Shown in pieces: positions 1 to 10,521 of a DNA stretch of 35,475 nt (positions are counted from its first letter, which is position 1; each line of letters begins with the position of its first letter). Source of the DNA: a candidate division WOR-1 bacterium RIFOXYB2_FULL_37_13 (GTDB lineage: Bacteria; Margulisbacteria; WOR-1; XYC2-FULL-46-14; XYC2-FULL-37-10); NCBI GenBank assembly GCA_001771535.1, contig MEUB01000035.1, positions 1 to 35,475 of the forward strand, given 5' to 3'. Below the pieces are notes generated by a model. The model did not search any database. It was not told the origin of the DNA and saw only the letters and a list, made by a program, of their open reading frames with translations. A program made the position numbers and the translations under genes.

Positions 1-183
1 TGTATCCTTCATCCCTCTTATAATTGGAATTTGGTAGGGGTCTACAATTGTTAAATCTGTTATTTTCCCCTCATCAGGAAAATCAATAACGCTATTTAAA
101 AAGCTCATGAGAATATTTTTGCTTCCTTCAGAACCAAAAACTTTCTTAAAAGCAAAATCAGTCTTAACATCTAAAAATCGCAT
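1..183 (-). CDS. Rpn/PDDEXK-family nuclease or transposase-like protein, N-terminal part only
   Basis: The reverse strand from 183 reads MRFLDVKTDFAFKKVFGSEG and stays open to the window edge (61 codons). The N-terminus, with DVKTDFAFKKVFG, NILMSFLNSVI and a later DPYQIP segment, is characteristic of the PD-(D/E)XK nuclease family transposase / Rpn recombination-promoting nuclease group (PF12784-like). An AAGGAG Shine-Dalgarno lies 7 nt before the ATG, supporting the start. The catalytic acidic and lysine residues would lie beyond the edge, so activity cannot be judged. These genes are common in many copies in mobile or accessory regions, which fits the decayed genes to the right. The family call rests on the N-terminal signature alone. 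Confidence 0.72.
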   Translation of the reverse strand, partial: MRFLDVKTDFAFKKVFGSEGSKNILMSFLNSVIDFPDEGKITDLTIVDPYQIPIIRGMKDT

Positions 184-4344: not shown

Positions 4345-4392
4345 TATCTAGAATTCATAATGAACTCCAGCGGTAGTGTTGTTCCTACCCCT

Positions 4393-4421
4393 TTGACTAA
4401 ATATACAAATTTGTGTAATAT
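4393..4421 (+). promoter_or_regulatory. Sigma-70-type promoter of the NifA-like regulator
   Basis: TTGACT (4393-4398), a 17-nt spacer and TAATAT (4416-4421) form a strong housekeeping promoter. The start would fall near 4428, just before ATG 4435. The promoter lies inside the longer open frame beginning at 4360, so it also argues that 4435 is the true start. Confidence 0.65.
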
Positions 4422-4434
4422 ACATAATTGTAGT

Positions 4435-5952
4435 ATGACTTTATTAAAAGATTTTAAAGTTCGAACCTTGGTAGAAATAAGCAGCGCGCTTTCTTCTTCG
4501 CTTAATCTGGAAAAAACCCTTGAATCCATCCTTAAGGTACTATCTGATTCTCTTGAAATGCAAAGAGGGACAATTACACTGGTAGACCCCAAAACAAATG
4601 AATTACGAATTGAGATTGCTTTTGGGCTTACAAAAGAGGAAAAAGAAAGAGGAAGATACAAAATAGGAGAAGGGGTTACGGGAAAAGTGGTTGAAACAGG
4701 CGAAGCTATGGTAATACAAGACATAGAAGCTGAGCCTTTGTTTTTAAATAGGACACAGGCAAGAAAAAAACTTGAATCCAGGAAATTTGCTTTTTTATGC
4801 GTTCCTATAAAAGTAAGCAATAAGATAATAGGAGCTCTTTCCGTTGATCATCTTTTTAAAGGTGATATTTCTTACGAAGAAGACATAAAACTTTTAACGA
4901 TCATCGCATCAATGGTTGGACAGGCCGTTAAAGTCCGTGAACTGGCAGAAAAAGACAAACAAGCTGTCATATCTGAAAACATTAAGCTGAAAAGAGAACT
5001 CAAAGGAAAATATAAATTTACAAATATTGTCTACTCTTCACAAGCAATGGAATCGGTCCTTGAAAGCGGGATGCAGGTCGCGCAAAGCAACGCAACAGTC
5101 ATTATTCATGGGGAATCTGGCACAGGAAAAGAACTAATAGCTTCGGCCATTCATTATAACAGCACAAGAGCAAACAAGCCTTTTATAAAGGTAGCATGTG
5201 CCGCCCTTCCCGAAAACCTGTTAGAATCAGAGCTCTTTGGATATGAAAGAGGAGCTTTCACAGGTGCTGCTGAAAGAAAGATAGGACGTTTTGAAATGGC
5301 AGATCTGGGAACAATTTTTCTCGACGAAATAGGAGATTTGACCCCTTTGACACAGGTAAAGCTTTTGAGAATCCTGCAGGAGAGAGAGTTTGAAAGGCTT
5401 GGCGGGACACAAACCATAAAGATAGATGTAAGAATAATCTGCGCAACACACAGAAATCTTGAAAAAATGGTTAAAGACGGAAAGTTTAGGGAAGACCTGT
5501 TTTACAGGATAAATGTTTTTCCTATTTACATTCCGCCTCTTAGGGAAAGAAAAGAAGACATTCCTCCCCTTGCTGATTATTTTATTTCAAAATATGCCAA
5601 AGAAAATAAAAAAAACATAAAAGCAATAAGCAGATCAGCGCTTGATATCCTTATAGCTCATAACTGGCCGGGGAATGTCAGGGAGTTTGAAAATATAATA
5701 GAAAGAGCTGTTGTTTTATGCCAGAAAGGAACAATTACCCCCTCTGAATTGCCATCCAATCTTATCTTAAGAAAAGATGTTGACCTTGAAGTGTCGCAAG
5801 CATCCCTTCCTGAAATAGTTGAATCGATTGAAAAAAGGAGCATCGAAGATGCTCTTAAAAAGCTCAAAACACAAAGAAAAACCGCAAAAGCACTCGGCAT
5901 AACAGAAAGAATGTTAGGCTATAAAATCAACAAGTATAAAATAGACATCTAA
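4435..5952 (+). CDS. NifA-like sigma-54-dependent transcriptional activator (GAF-AAA+-Fis HTH)
   Basis: A 505-aa protein starting MTLLKDFKVRTLVEISSALS. Residues ~10-165 form a GAF domain of the NifA type (QRGTITLVDPKTNELRIEIA, GEGVTGKVVETGEA). Residues ~195-430 form the AAA+ domain, with Walker A GESGTGKE, the sigma-54 contact loop GAFTGA, Walker B TIFLDEIGD and the arginine-rich LRERKEDIPPL. The C-terminus (RKTAKALGITERMLGYKINK) is a Fis-type helix-turn-helix very like the NifA end. Such proteins hydrolyse ATP to open sigma-54 promoters. The facing operon holds amtB and glnK behind a -24/-12 promoter and a NifA-like binding site, so that operon is the obvious target. No nif genes are present, so nitrogen-source control rather than fixation is all that can be claimed. 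Confidence 0.93.
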   Translation: MTLLKDFKVRTLVEISSALSSSLNLEKTLESILKVLSDSLEMQRGTITLVDPKTNELRIEIAFGLTKEEKERGRYKIGEGVTGKVVETGEAMVIQDIEAEPLFLNRTQARKKLESRKFAFLCVPIKVSNKIIGALSVDHLFKGDISYEEDIKLLTIIASMVGQAVKVRELAEKDKQAVISENIKLKRELKGKYKFTNIVYSSQAMESVLESGMQVAQSNATVIIHGESGTGKELIASAIHYNSTRANKPFIKVACAALPENLLESELFGYERGAFTGAAERKIGRFEMADLGTIFLDEIGDLTPLTQVKLLRILQEREFERLGGTQTIKIDVRIICATHRNLEKMVKDGKFREDLFYRINVFPIYIPPLRERKEDIPPLADYFISKYAKENKKNIKAISRSALDILIAHNWPGNVREFENIIERAVVLCQKGTITPSELPSNLILRKDVDLEVSQASLPEIVESIEKRSIEDALKKLKTQRKTAKALGITERMLGYKINKYKIDI

Positions 5953-5967
5953 GCTGAACAATTCGAG

Positions 5968-6008
5968 TCCTGAGCTTGCCCCGAGGCAATCGGGGGCTTG
6001 TCGAAGGA
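5968..6008. repeat. Nested palindromic intergenic repeat
   Basis: An outer pair, TCCTGAGCTTG (5968-5978) and CTTGTCGAAGGA (5997-6008), has the form of the dispersed CCTGAGCTTGTCGAAGG element found in many bacterial genomes. Here it is split by an inner hairpin, CCCCGA (5979-5984), loop GGCAA, TCGGGG (5990-5995). It lies between two convergent genes and could terminate transcription both ways, although no clean T-run follows. Confidence 0.5.
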
Positions 6009-6069
6009 TTGGAGATTAGTTTTTTCTTAACCAGTCTCCAATCTCTACTTTCTAATATCCAATTTCTAG
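6007..6069. repeat. Heptanucleotide repeat array with inverted arms
   Basis: From 6035 the sequence falls into five 7-nt units, TCTCCAA TCTCTAC, TTTCTAA TATCCAA and TTTCTAG, the last reaching into the glnK stop codon. The opposite orientation (GATTGGA GATTAGT) lies at 6007-6020. GATTGGAGA (6007-6015) pairs perfectly with TCTCCAATC (6035-6043) around a T-rich centre, so a hairpin can form between the convergent regulator and glnK genes. Confidence 0.5.
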
Positions 6070-6410
6070 ATCGCCTTATCCCCTCTCTCCCCCGTCCTTA
6101 CTCTTATAATATTCTCAACAGGAGAAACAAATATTTTCCCATCCCCAGGCTGTCCTGTTCTTGCAGATTTTTCAATGGCACTGATGGCTCTCTCGCAATC
6201 AAAGTCGTCAACTATTACCTCCACCTTTAACTTCGGCAGAAATTCAACCCGATATTCTCCCGCCCGCCATTCAAGCACTATTCCCTTTTGCGTCCCCCGC
6301 CCTTTTACCTCTGTAACAGTCATCCCCACAAACCCTTCAGCTTCAAGCGCAATTCTTACTTCTTCTAATTTTTCCGATCTTATAATTGCCTCTATTTTTT
6401 TAAAACTCAT
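6066..6410 (-). CDS. glnK: Nitrogen regulatory protein P-II
   Basis: The 114-aa protein is a canonical P-II: KKIEAIIRSEKLEEVRIALE, GMTVTEVKGRGTQKG, the T-loop EWRAGEYRVEFLPK with the modifiable tyrosine at residue 53 (Tyr51 equivalent), and the C-terminal TGQPGDGKIF...IRVRTGERG that binds ATP/ADP. P-II proteins sense 2-oxoglutarate and adenylate charge; the GlnK type plugs the AmtB channel when nitrogen is plentiful. It lies 20 nt downstream of amtB behind an AGGAGG site, the usual GlnK place. Length and frame are normal. Whether it is uridylylated cannot be told, because no GlnD is in the window. Confidence 0.95.
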   Translation of the reverse strand: MSFKKIEAIIRSEKLEEVRIALEAEGFVGMTVTEVKGRGTQKGIVLEWRAGEYRVEFLPKLKVEVIVDDFDCERAISAIEKSARTGQPGDGKIFVSPVENIIRVRTGERGDKAI

Positions 6411-6430: not shown

Positions 6431-7648
6431 TTAGCTGAACGCTGTTTCGCCGTGTTGCGCAATATCAAGCCCGATATTCTCTTCCGCCTCTTTTGCTCTA
6501 AGAGAAAATATCGCATCAATAACTTTGGCAAGGATAAAACTTACAATAAAAGCAAAGAGAGCAACTACGGCTACTGTAAAAGCTTGAATCCCAAACAATC
6601 CAGGATTTCCAAAAAACAACCCGTCAGCACCTGCTGAATTTATAGCTTTTTCTGCAAATAACCCCGTTGCCAAAGCTCCAAAAATTCCACCCATTCCGTG
6701 GCAGGCAAAAACATCTAGTGAATCATCCAACCCGCTTTTTGTACGAATAAGTATTGCGTAGTAGGAAATTACAGCCGCAACAGCCCCAATCACTATTGCA
6801 GACAGCGGACTTACAAATCCTGAAGCAGGAGTAATTGCAACAAGCCCTACAACAGCCCCAGTTGCCAAACCCAAGACGCTTGGTCTTTTGTGAATCCAGC
6901 TTACAACCATCCAAGCAAGAGCCGCAGAAGCTGCCGCAGTATTTGTTACAACAAAAGCTGAAACCGCAAGCCCGTTTGCCGCCAATGCTGATCCACCGTT
7001 AAAGCCAAACCATCCAAACCATAAAAGAAAAGCACCTAAAACTGTAAGAGGAATATTTGAAGGCTCCATTGGAGTTTTGCCATATCCTTTGCGTTTTCCA
7101 ATAACCATCGCCATAGAAAGAGCAGAAATCCCTGCTGTTATGTGAACAACAGTTCCACCTGCAAAATCAAGTGCCCCCATATTTCTAAGCCAACCGCCAA
7201 TTCCCCATACCCAGTGAGCAACAGGGGCATAAACAAATGTTGACCATAATAATATGTATAATAAGAAGCTTCCAAAACTTATTCTTTCAACAAAGGCTCC
7301 GGTGATAAGCGCAGGAGTTATTACGGCAAAAGCAAGTTGGAAAACCATAAAAGCAAGATGTGGAATTGTGGCAGCATATCCGGCATTAGCCTCTTGTCCC
7401 ACCCCATTTAACCCAAGCCAGTTTAAGCCACCAATAAGGCCAGCATGATCAGTTCCAAATGATAATGAATATCCATAAAGAACCCATTGGACAGATATTA
7501 ACGCAAGAATTGAAACAGAAAGCATAAGAGTTGAAAGTATATTTTTACGCCTCACCATTCCCGCGTAAAAAAATCCCAGCGCCGGTGTCATCATAATAAC
7601 AAGCGCGGTAGAAATTAAAACCCAAGCAGTATCTCCAGCATTTATCAT
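6431..7648 (-). CDS. amtB: Ammonium transporter
   Basis: This 405-aa, roughly eleven-span inner-membrane channel starts MINAGDTAWVLISTALVIMM. It shows the family blocks GFFYAGMVRRKN, WVWGIGGWL, ALDFAGGTVVH with the first pore histidine and preceding aspartate, WFGWFGFNGGSAL, and CHGMGGIFGALATGLFA with the second pore histidine. The trimeric channel carries ammonium or ammonia into the cytoplasm. No cleavable signal peptide is apparent, unlike E. coli AmtB. An AAGGGGGA Shine-Dalgarno precedes the start. The gene sits 15 nt after the outer-membrane protein gene and 20 nt before glnK, so all three form one operon, presumably driven by the sigma-54 promoter at 8382-8397. Confidence 0.96.
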   Translation of the reverse strand: MINAGDTAWVLISTALVIMMTPALGFFYAGMVRRKNILSTLMLSVSILALISVQWVLYGYSLSFGTDHAGLIGGLNWLGLNGVGQEANAGYAATIPHLAFMVFQLAFAVITPALITGAFVERISFGSFLLYILLWSTFVYAPVAHWVWGIGGWLRNMGALDFAGGTVVHITAGISALSMAMVIGKRKGYGKTPMEPSNIPLTVLGAFLLWFGWFGFNGGSALAANGLAVSAFVVTNTAAASAALAWMVVSWIHKRPSVLGLATGAVVGLVAITPASGFVSPLSAIVIGAVAAVISYYAILIRTKSGLDDSLDVFACHGMGGIFGALATGLFAEKAINSAGADGLFFGNPGLFGIQAFTVAVVALFAFIVSFILAKVIDAIFSLRAKEAEENIGLDIAQHGETAFS

Positions 7649-7663
7649 TTTATTTTCCCCCTT

Positions 7664-8335
7664 TTATATATTTATATCCAACTGCGTAGTAAATGTTGGT
7701 TTTGCGCCATTGTTGTAAGTGCCATATCCAAATATCACGGAAGTATTTCCTGAAAACATCCAAGAAACTCCGTAGAATGTTGCGCCCAAGGCTGATTTTG
7801 TGCCTGCATAATCAACACATGCCCACAATTTATCATTTATAACTTTGTCCCAAGTTAAAATTAAACCAGCGTTTTCATTAACACCCAAAACTTTATCATT
7901 TCCTGAAAAATATCCTGCGGTAAGCCTTCCTACAACTGGCAATGTTTTTGCGACAACTCCATACAAAACATTTTGATCCGTAACTCCTGTTTGAGTACCA
8001 AAACCATAGCCTCCAACCGCAAAAGAAGGAATTACTTCTTTTTCCGCTATTCCATATTTAGCATTAAAAGCAAAAGGGCTTTGCTGGGGAAGAAACACGT
8101 CAATTCCGATCTCAAGACCCGAAACCAATCCATAAGTTAATCCCAAATCCGTAGGAAATGCGTACCCCCCATCAATTGGCCCCTCCTGTGTAAAATAGTT
8201 ATCTATGCCAAAATGCAGAACTCCTACCCCCTGGATATCCGTTGAAGGGTTCCATATCTGCGTGGACGGCGTCGCAAAAGATGCCCCAATCAGCAAACAA
8301 ACAAGAACCATGGAAACAAATAATTTACAAAACAT
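7664..8335 (-). CDS. Putative outer-membrane beta-barrel protein of the amtB operon
   Basis: The 223-aa product starts MFCKLFVSMVLVCLLIGASF with a clear signal peptide, cleaved near SFA/TPST. The mature part is a series of short alternating amphipathic strands rich in Gly, Tyr and Phe (LGLTYGLVSGLEIGIDVFLP, AVGGYGFGTQTG, VIFGYGTYNNG), as expected for a small barrel of about ten to twelve strands. No catalytic motif is seen. An open frame extends to 8398, but those codons overlap the sigma-54 promoter; ATG 8335 has an AGGAGAGG site and is the right start. As first gene of the amtB-glnK operon it probably serves ammonium or other nitrogen uptake across the outer membrane, which is inference from context. 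Confidence 0.72.
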   Translation of the reverse strand: MFCKLFVSMVLVCLLIGASFATPSTQIWNPSTDIQGVGVLHFGIDNYFTQEGPIDGGYAFPTDLGLTYGLVSGLEIGIDVFLPQQSPFAFNAKYGIAEKEVIPSFAVGGYGFGTQTGVTDQNVLYGVVAKTLPVVGRLTAGYFSGNDKVLGVNENAGLILTWDKVINDKLWACVDYAGTKSALGATFYGVSWMFSGNTSVIFGYGTYNNGAKPTFTTQLDINI

Positions 8336-8381
8336 ATTTTCTATCCTCTCCTTTATTTTTTTAACTATCCACCCGTTAAGC

Positions 8382-8397
8382 AGCAATTTTCCTGCCA
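8382..8397 (-). promoter_or_regulatory. Sigma-54 (-24/-12) promoter of the OMP-amtB-glnK operon
   Basis: The reverse strand reads TGGCAGGAAAATTGCT. This has the invariant GG and GC dinucleotides 10 nt apart and nearly the whole consensus (TGGCAC-N5-TTGCW). GG is at 8396-8395 and GC at 8384-8383, placing the transcript start near 8371 and the Shine-Dalgarno and ATG 8335 just downstream. The matching activator is encoded at 4435-5952. Confidence 0.75.
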
Positions 8398-8422
8398 ATA
8401 TAAAAAGAGGGGATTAAATACG

Positions 8423-8464
8423 TTTTTGTAGAACAATAAACAAGTCAAGCTACTTTTTTGTAGA
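8423..8464. repeat. Direct repeat TTTTTGTAGA, two copies 32 bp apart
   Basis: TTTTTGTAGA occurs at 8423-8432 and 8455-8464, with starts 32 bp apart (about three helical turns) and on the same face of the DNA, upstream of the sigma-54 promoter. The first copy overlaps the TGT-N10-ACA site. The repeats may help position the activator hexamer or a second regulator. Confidence 0.4.
8427..8442. promoter_or_regulatory. NifA-type upstream activator site TGT-N10-ACA
   Basis: TGTAGAACAATAAACA matches the NifA enhancer consensus TGT-N10-ACA exactly. It is centred about 64 nt upstream of the predicted sigma-54 start, closer than the typical -100 to -150. In AT-rich DNA a chance match is possible, but it lies in the intergenic stretch where the NifA-like activator is expected to bind. 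Confidence 0.45.
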
Positions 8465-8805: not shown

Positions 8806-10521
8806 TTAAATTCTAAGAACACTAGGAATTTCATAACTTCCAAAAACCATCGCTTCTCTAGGAAGTTCATTAAGAGTAAGCAGATGCTCGCTCCATACGC
8901 TATCAGTTAAAGGACCTATGCTGCTAGGAACAAGTTGCCGGCTCCAACCCTCTGCAAAAGCCATTTCCGGAGCAGTAATTTTCATTTGAACTCCATTACC
9001 ATTTTCTAAAGTAACTTCCGTATCTGCCATAACGGTAGCCCATGTATACCAGTTCTTTTTTCCAAGATTATTCCACTCAAAAGAAGTGGCAATAACATTA
9101 GGATCTTCATCTAATTCACAAAAGGCTTGCAGATGAGCTTTTTTTTCACTGTTATAATCAATAAAATTTTTCTTGCCTAAAGACACATCAGCAATATAGC
9201 TCAAAGACTCTTCAATCCCATCATAAGGAAGCACAAAAGATAATGAATAATCAGAAAATCCATCCTCTAATTTTGTTATAATATTTTCAGCTTTTATCAT
9301 TTTTATCCAAAATTCAATAGACGCCTTCTCTATGTAAACATGTTGAGCTCTTTCATTAAAGAAACTGGATATAGGCCCCAAAAACGGTTTTTTTGCCATT
9401 AAAGAATTTATTGAAGCAGCATGAGTAAGACCAACAGCAGCCGCGTTATAACTTCTCAAGCTGGAAAGAGGTAAGCCCGCTACCATACAATCTCGGGCAA
9501 TTCTATCAGACATTAAAATTTCCAGAGAAGCGCCAACCATTACATCTGAATAAGCTTGCCTCAAAGCCCCTTCATTTTTGAATCTTTCCAAAAGCCCTGG
9601 AACCCTTTCTGTAAAAAAGTTAACAGGTGTTTTAGCGTATCCATAAATAGTTGGATGCATTCTTATTCTCCTTAAAACAGCCTCTTCATCAAAACTTTCT
9701 TCCAGTGTCAGAGTAGATTTCATATCATCAATTACCTTTGCCCAAAGAGTAAACCGTCTACCCATCCCTTCAAACGCGATACCGTATCTATTTATTTTCG
9801 GAAGATTATTTTTTTGTGCCATTGATAAAACCAACTCTCTTGTAACTGCCTTGCCATTCTTAACCAAATCAACGATTGTCGGAAGATCAGGCTCGCCGGT
9901 AAGCGCGTAATAAAAGTTATAAATTTTTTCCCAATTGTTAAAAAGCTGAGAATTCTTTCTTAAAATCGCAACCAGCTCTTCCATTACTTCAAAATCAAAA
10001 AGGTAATTGCTAATTGATTGAGCATAAGAAGAATCCAGGCTAATATCAGCCGCCCCCATTGACAGCAGTGTCATTGCTTGAAAGTATTTTTGCAATATTT
10101 CGGTCTTTTCATAATGTCCTACCGGTTTCGCGGACGCATCTTCTCTAATTCTGCCGGCTCTTGCAACCGCAGCTTTCGTAACACCTTTATCAGAACCTAT
10201 CAAGTTCAAAACAGCTCCTAAAAATTCTTTGGTCCCGTCTTTTTGCGCCAAATCATACATATGTTCAATTGTATCTTCTAAAAGCGGACTTAAAGTATTT
10301 TCTTCTCTAATCATAACAATTTTTTTATGCCTTAATGTAATAGCAGTCATCATATGTGAAACAGGAAGAAATAACGATTCCCCCGCATCCAAACGATCTT
10401 TTACAAAAGTTTGAGGCCCGCATGCGCTATCTGCAAAAAAACCTCCGTCAGAAGAAGCTTTAACCACAGGACGCCTAAACACCTGGCTCACCACTTTATA
10501 TCCGCCAATCGCATTTGTCAT
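8806..10521 (-). CDS. Hypothetical protein (571 aa), possibly DUF3160-like
   Basis: A long intact frame beginning MTNAIGGYKVVSQVFRRPVV after an AAGGGGAT Shine-Dalgarno. It lacks a signal peptide and membrane spans. Composition is that of a mostly helical cytoplasmic protein; segments such as EKIYNFYYALTGEPDLPTIV followed by GIAFEGMGRRFTLWAKVIDD faintly recall the order of blocks in DUF3160 proteins. That resemblance is weak and should not be treated as identification. The last 150 residues are more beta-rich (FEWNNLGKKNWYTWATVMAD, EVTLENGNGVQMKI). It lies between the nitrogen operon and the divergent lptD gene. Function is unknown; the 70-aa gene downstream may be its partner. Confidence 0.72.
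   Translation of the reverse strand: MTNAIGGYKVVSQVFRRPVVKASSDGGFFADSACGPQTFVKDRLDAGESLFLPVSHMMTAITLRHKKIVMIREENTLSPLLEDTIEHMYDLAQKDGTKEFLGAVLNLIGSDKGVTKAAVARAGRIREDASAKPVGHYEKTEILQKYFQAMTLLSMGAADISLDSSYAQSISNYLFDFEVMEELVAILRKNSQLFNNWEKIYNFYYALTGEPDLPTIVDLVKNGKAVTRELVLSMAQKNNLPKINRYGIAFEGMGRRFTLWAKVIDDMKSTLTLEESFDEEAVLRRIRMHPTIYGYAKTPVNFFTERVPGLLERFKNEGALRQAYSDVMVGASLEILMSDRIARDCMVAGLPLSSLRSYNAAAVGLTHAASINSLMAKKPFLGPISSFFNERAQHVYIEKASIEFWIKMIKAENIITKLEDGFSDYSLSFVLPYDGIEESLSYIADVSLGKKNFIDYNSEKKAHLQAFCELDEDPNVIATSFEWNNLGKKNWYTWATVMADTEVTLENGNGVQMKITAPEMAFAEGWSRQLVPSSIGPLTDSVWSEHLLTLNELPREAMVFGSYEIPSVLRI

Follow-up and report, generated by a model that had tools for sequence, protein, structure and literature searches.

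The window analysed here, a stretch of 35,475 nt, came from a 1.79-Mb genome estimated at 96.7% completeness, and its minus strand carried the gene order OMP, amtB, glnK (Table 1). The OMP gene, with AAAGGAG just 5′ of its ATG, encoded a protein 37–47% identical to proteins adjoining amtB/glnK in Omnitrophota and Deltaproteobacteria, and its predicted 12-strand barrel resembled oligogalacturonate/KdgM-type porins. Among named proteins, a close match of AmtB (72%) came from Candidatus Margulisiibacteriota isolate STF1_193. Upstream of the operon and on the same strand, a gene at 8806-10521 gave a partial DUF3160 match. Converging on glnK from the plus strand was a regulator gene with GAF, AAA+, and HTH domains, which agreed with the initial annotation of a NifA-like activator about 2.4 kb away and facing the operon; the inverted repeat between the two genes is a possible shared terminator for both.

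Table 1. Positions of the genes and predicted regulatory features in the window, followed by dyad pairs at loci of other phyla (numbered within each locus).
Feature	Position	Strand	Remarks
Sigma-70 promoter of regulator (predicted), TTGACT-17-TAATAT	4393..4421	+	
Operator TACAAATTTGTG	4404..4415	+	Within the -35/-10 spacer of the regulator promoter
Operator TACATAATTGTA	4421..4432	+	Overlies the predicted start, 2 bases 5′ of the ATG; best operator match in the window
NifA/AnfA-family regulator	4435..5952	+	GAF, HTH, and a GAFTGA-bearing AAA+ domain; translation probably begins at ATG 4435 and not at 4360
Inverted repeat	6007..6043		Arms of 15 nt; lies between regulator and glnK, which converge
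glnK	6066..6410	-	PII nitrogen regulatory protein
amtB	6431..7648	-	Ammonium transporter
OMP	7664..8335	-	Outer-membrane protein; predicted 12-stranded beta-barrel; without Pfam family
Sigma-54 promoter TGGCAGGAAAATTGCT (predicted -24/-12)	8382..8397	-	Conserved in the class, 5′ of most OMP/amtB genes
Proximal operator CTACAAAAACGTAT	8418..8431	-	Centred near -53; ranked in the top four by a matrix built without the source genome
TGT-N10-ACA site of the initial annotation	8427..8442	-	Judged a chance match
Distal operator CTACAAAAAAGTAG	8450..8463	-	Centred near -85, three helical turns (32 bp) beyond the proximal operator
TACA-N4-TGTA pairs, locus L028	5598-5639, 7771-7812		
TACA-N4-TGTA pair, locus L039	953-994		
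TACA-N4-TGTA pair, locus L068	2660-2703		

The sigma-54 element had been described from the sequence as TGGCAG-N5-TTGCT with exact GG-N10-GC spacing, and this was borne out on the minus strand, where GG occupied 8396-8395 and GC 8384-8383. The element lay about 47 bp 5′ of the OMP ATG and predicted a transcript start near position 8371. Sigma-54 control had been made dependent on the presence of rpoN, and the genome search found one copy. The TGGCASNNNNNTTGCW pattern gave five matches in the source genome and its reversed control none. Across the class, most homologous OMP/amtB genes had an element resembling TGGCA-N5-TTGCT on their 5′ side, usually no more than about 110 bp from the start of the gene, a recurrence that places the element beyond chance. 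This class-wide conservation was the strongest evidence for the predicted sigma-54 control, and we regard the putative promoter as real. The weight matrix for sigma-54 sites used approximate frequencies, so that its scores are relative only, and the conclusions were drawn from pattern counts and conservation. An identical 16-base element occurred elsewhere in the genome (C14:13717-13732; L155:3218-3233), approximately 0.4 kb 5′ of a response-regulator gene with a partial sigma-54 activation domain.

Operators were sought in 32 regions, each being the 130-bp stretch 5′ of the sigma-54 element at an OMP/amtB gene of the class. TAC-N6-GTA was the top scorer of all three-base dyads tested, occurring in 23 of the 32 (shuffle maximum 3) with TACA-N4-TGTA as its best form; GTAC-N6-GTAC was found in 0 of 32. 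Measured from the T of TGGC, dyad centres grouped at approximately 27, 38, and 59 bp, or about -53, -64, and -85, with a period of 10.5–10.75 bp (R 0.63, n = 47) and a nominal p of 7e-9 that is too optimistic because the sequences are related. For the same reason, operator and promoter counts across the relatives, many of whose genomes are incomplete, are not independent. A weight matrix built from relatives only, leaving out the source genome, ranked the four dyads of the window 1–4 of 35,462 positions, at 13.6–17.6 bits against 10.2 for the next position. Matrices trained on the sigma-54 promoters alone still detected the sites on the regulator's own promoter, and those trained on regulator promoters alone still detected the amtB sites. 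The TTTTTGTAGA repeats listed in the initial annotation were present at 8423 and 8455, 32 bp apart, but did not stand as a separate motif, being halves of TAC-N6-GTA dyads. An NtcA-type box (GTA-N8-TAC) was rejected, as its half-sites are inverted relative to those found here and its spacing differs.

A sigma-70 promoter had likewise been attributed to the activator gene, and a sigma-70-like element was indeed located just 5′ of it; its position relative to the likely ATG implies a nearly leaderless transcript. The two dyads on this promoter were absent from the initial annotation. Among the 25 orthologues in the class, 22 had TACA-N4-TGTA within 70 bp 5′ of the regulator start (shuffle maximum 3), typically with one dyad in the -35/-10 spacer and a second 17–22 bp on, over the start region. 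Regulators outside the class, 50–56% identical, kept dyads just 5′ of the gene, and in relatives the regulator gene commonly adjoined OMP/amtB. One relative (G010) had neither operator nor regulator orthologue. Sequence features of a sigma-54 enhancer-binding protein were found, namely AAA+ with GAFTGA, HTH, rpoN in the genome, and a -24/-12 target promoter, and the regulator matched the NifA structure PDB 9qq6 at 402 bits. The cysteine motif of the AnfA/VnfA GAF domain was absent from the regulator, whose GAF domain contained one Cys (147). Cys19/Cys24 were rejected as an N-terminal redox motif because they precede the likely start (residue 26) and are translated operator/promoter DNA.

The initial annotation had also stated that nif genes were missing. 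Pattern searches and family searches were the tests applied to the source genome itself; the latter gave no match to PF00148 and, for PF00142, only a partial 27-bit match (residues 7-76 of the model), and nitrogenase protein was not found in the class. PF00148 proteins occurred in four genomes elsewhere in the phylum, and a published Margulisbacteria genome carries nif genes with nifA downstream (PMC6349859); nitrogenase is thus not foreign to the phylum. In a diazotrophic relative (G034), the regulator and amtB genes had dyads, and the patterns used detected no operator/sigma-54 pair near the nif cluster. Within the 31 genomes of the class, the combined operator and sigma-54 pattern matched 48 times and its reversed control 4 times; for the remaining 43 genomes of the phylum the figures were 33 and 38. 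Its targets in relatives included OMP, amtB, glutamine synthetase I and III, and glutamate synthase. A wider regulon in the source genome was rejected, as the pattern gave the OMP-amtB-glnK promoter and one unconvincing site on contig C68. Glutamine synthetase (PF00120), present in 30 of 31 class genomes, was not found in the source genome, which reflects either an assembly gap or real loss; a counterpart of the amtB2-glnA locus of relative G001 was also absent from it. One locus each from Planctomycetota, Nitrospirota, and Desulfobacterales also had pairs of TACA-N4-TGTA 30–32 bp apart close to amtB/glnK; the spread of the dyads to other phyla is based on a handful of loci.

These findings suggested a one-component GAF/AAA+/HTH protein that acts as a repressor at its own sigma-70 promoter and as an activator of ammonium acquisition at a sigma-54 promoter, a reading to which we assign a probability of about 0.77. 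We infer that the regulator binds the TACA-N4-TGTA dyads. At its own promoter, the two dyads span the -35/-10 spacer and the start, and the regulator, once bound there, would limit its own synthesis. At the OMP operon, the two dyads, lying on one helix face, would keep the protein 5′ of sigma-54 RNA polymerase, so that it could open the polymerase through ATP hydrolysis. The GAF domain may read nitrogen status (2-oxoglutarate and/or GlnK), so that nitrogen shortage would lead to synthesis of the outer-membrane pore, the ammonium transporter, and the PII protein. Counting against this explanation are the centre at -53, which is close for an enhancer-binding protein, the missing GAF cysteine motif, and a relative (G007) that had the operator with no regulator orthologue detected in its 90% complete assembly. 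The earlier reading, a NifA-like protein used for ammonium control through sigma-54, gained from the conservation across the class and the lack of detectable nitrogenase, but it had misread the operator, which is a TAC-N6-GTA pair and not TGT-N10-ACA.

The reading of the regulator as a genuine NifA that works through the TGT-N10-ACA site is very improbable. The regulator's score against the NifA model TIGR01817, 530.9 bits for an equivalog cut-off of 528.85, passed by a narrow margin, with the best stretch spanning 438 of 534 model positions. The site itself exists, 64 bp from the predicted start, but it takes its ACA from the proximal dyad, was present in 3 of the 32 homologous promoters, a number equalled by shuffles (maximum 3), and occurred 11 times in the window; nor was nitrogenase found in the genome or the class. 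A NifA locus of Methylococcus, whose nifB had TGT-N10-ACA and no TAC-N6-GTA, was rejected as a comparison.

NtrC-type control of amtB-glnK is common, and two further proteins of the source genome, encoded on contigs C62 and C28, are clear enhancer-binding proteins, both with receiver, AAA+, and HTH domains. Either is a possible but less likely binder of the dyads, and we consider it unlikely that another protein of this NtrC-like kind acts there, as nearly all orthologues of the NifA-like gene carry the dyads on their own promoter, that gene adjoins amtB, and the site is also that of AnfA, which belongs to the same family. Activators that raise their own expression exist, and autorepression is proposed here from sequence; autoactivation or neutral binding at the regulator promoter is nevertheless quite unlikely, because polymerase would normally be excluded by protein bound in the -35/-10 spacer and across the start of this sigma-70 promoter. 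A further suggestion concerns history: control of ammonium scavenging through TAC-N6-GTA with autorepression could be the older role in this NifA/AnfA branch, from which the nitrogenase regulators AnfA and VnfA were recruited later. This idea, which we hold as speculative and doubtful, with some chance of being correct, draws on the paired dyads 5′ of amtB/glnK at single loci of Nitrospirota, Desulfobacterales, and Planctomycetota.

Our preferred reading, an autorepressing activator of ammonium acquisition, means that a Margulisbacterium with no detectable nitrogen-fixation genes appears to use a nitrogenase-type regulator to activate ammonium uptake and repress its own gene through one DNA site. 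An uncultured phylum related to Cyanobacteria thereby gains a testable nitrogen-control circuit with its bases mapped, and the case shows that nitrogen fixation cannot be inferred from a gene's score as nif-specific NifA. In the enteric NtrC circuit, one protein likewise activates ammonium assimilation genes from sigma-54 and represses sigma-70 promoters; NtrC, however, has a two-component receiver and another operator, whereas the window regulator has a GAF domain. NifA shares the regulator's domain order but binds TGT-N10-ACA and controls nif genes, neither of which holds here.

The operator is, by its sequence, the AnfA class of site, published for AnfA and not for NifA. Rhodobacter capsulatus AnfA binds paired tandem TAC-N6-GTA sites at the anfH promoter (PMC7294313), and literature searches with the exact dyad strings returned only this paper, and nothing matching came up when NifA-like regulators acting on amtB were sought. 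Azotobacter vinelandii VnfA, a related activator, also uses paired dyads, of the GTAC-N6-GTAC type (PMC9542535; the plain form is quoted in PMC7294313). This consensus contains TAC-N6-GTA, the outer G/C being unused here, and its targets are alternative nitrogenase and metal genes, unlike those in the window. A Nitratidesulfovibrio vulgaris plasmid regulator was 43.6% identical to the window regulator, and the same plasmid had CTACAAAAATGTAG and TGGCACATCCCTTGCC 5′ of nifH together with a sigma-54 element, its target being nitrogenase, unlike that of the window regulator; the plasmid regulator is probably DVUA0143, the AnfA/VnfA-like nif regulator of N. vulgaris (PMC4641369). Like the window regulator, AnfA is a NifA-type GAF/AAA+/HTH sigma-54 activator with two tandem dyads 5′ of the target promoter. 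AnfA has the GAF cysteine motif, which the window regulator does not, and we liken the two at the DNA level, where the sites look alike, without claiming AnfA/VnfA membership. AnfA targets Fe-nitrogenase, whereas the target here is ammonium uptake, with the operator additionally covering the regulator's own sigma-70 promoter. A DNA site already known from iron-nitrogenase control would thus be extended to ammonium assimilation, which bears on the origin of nitrogenase regulators.
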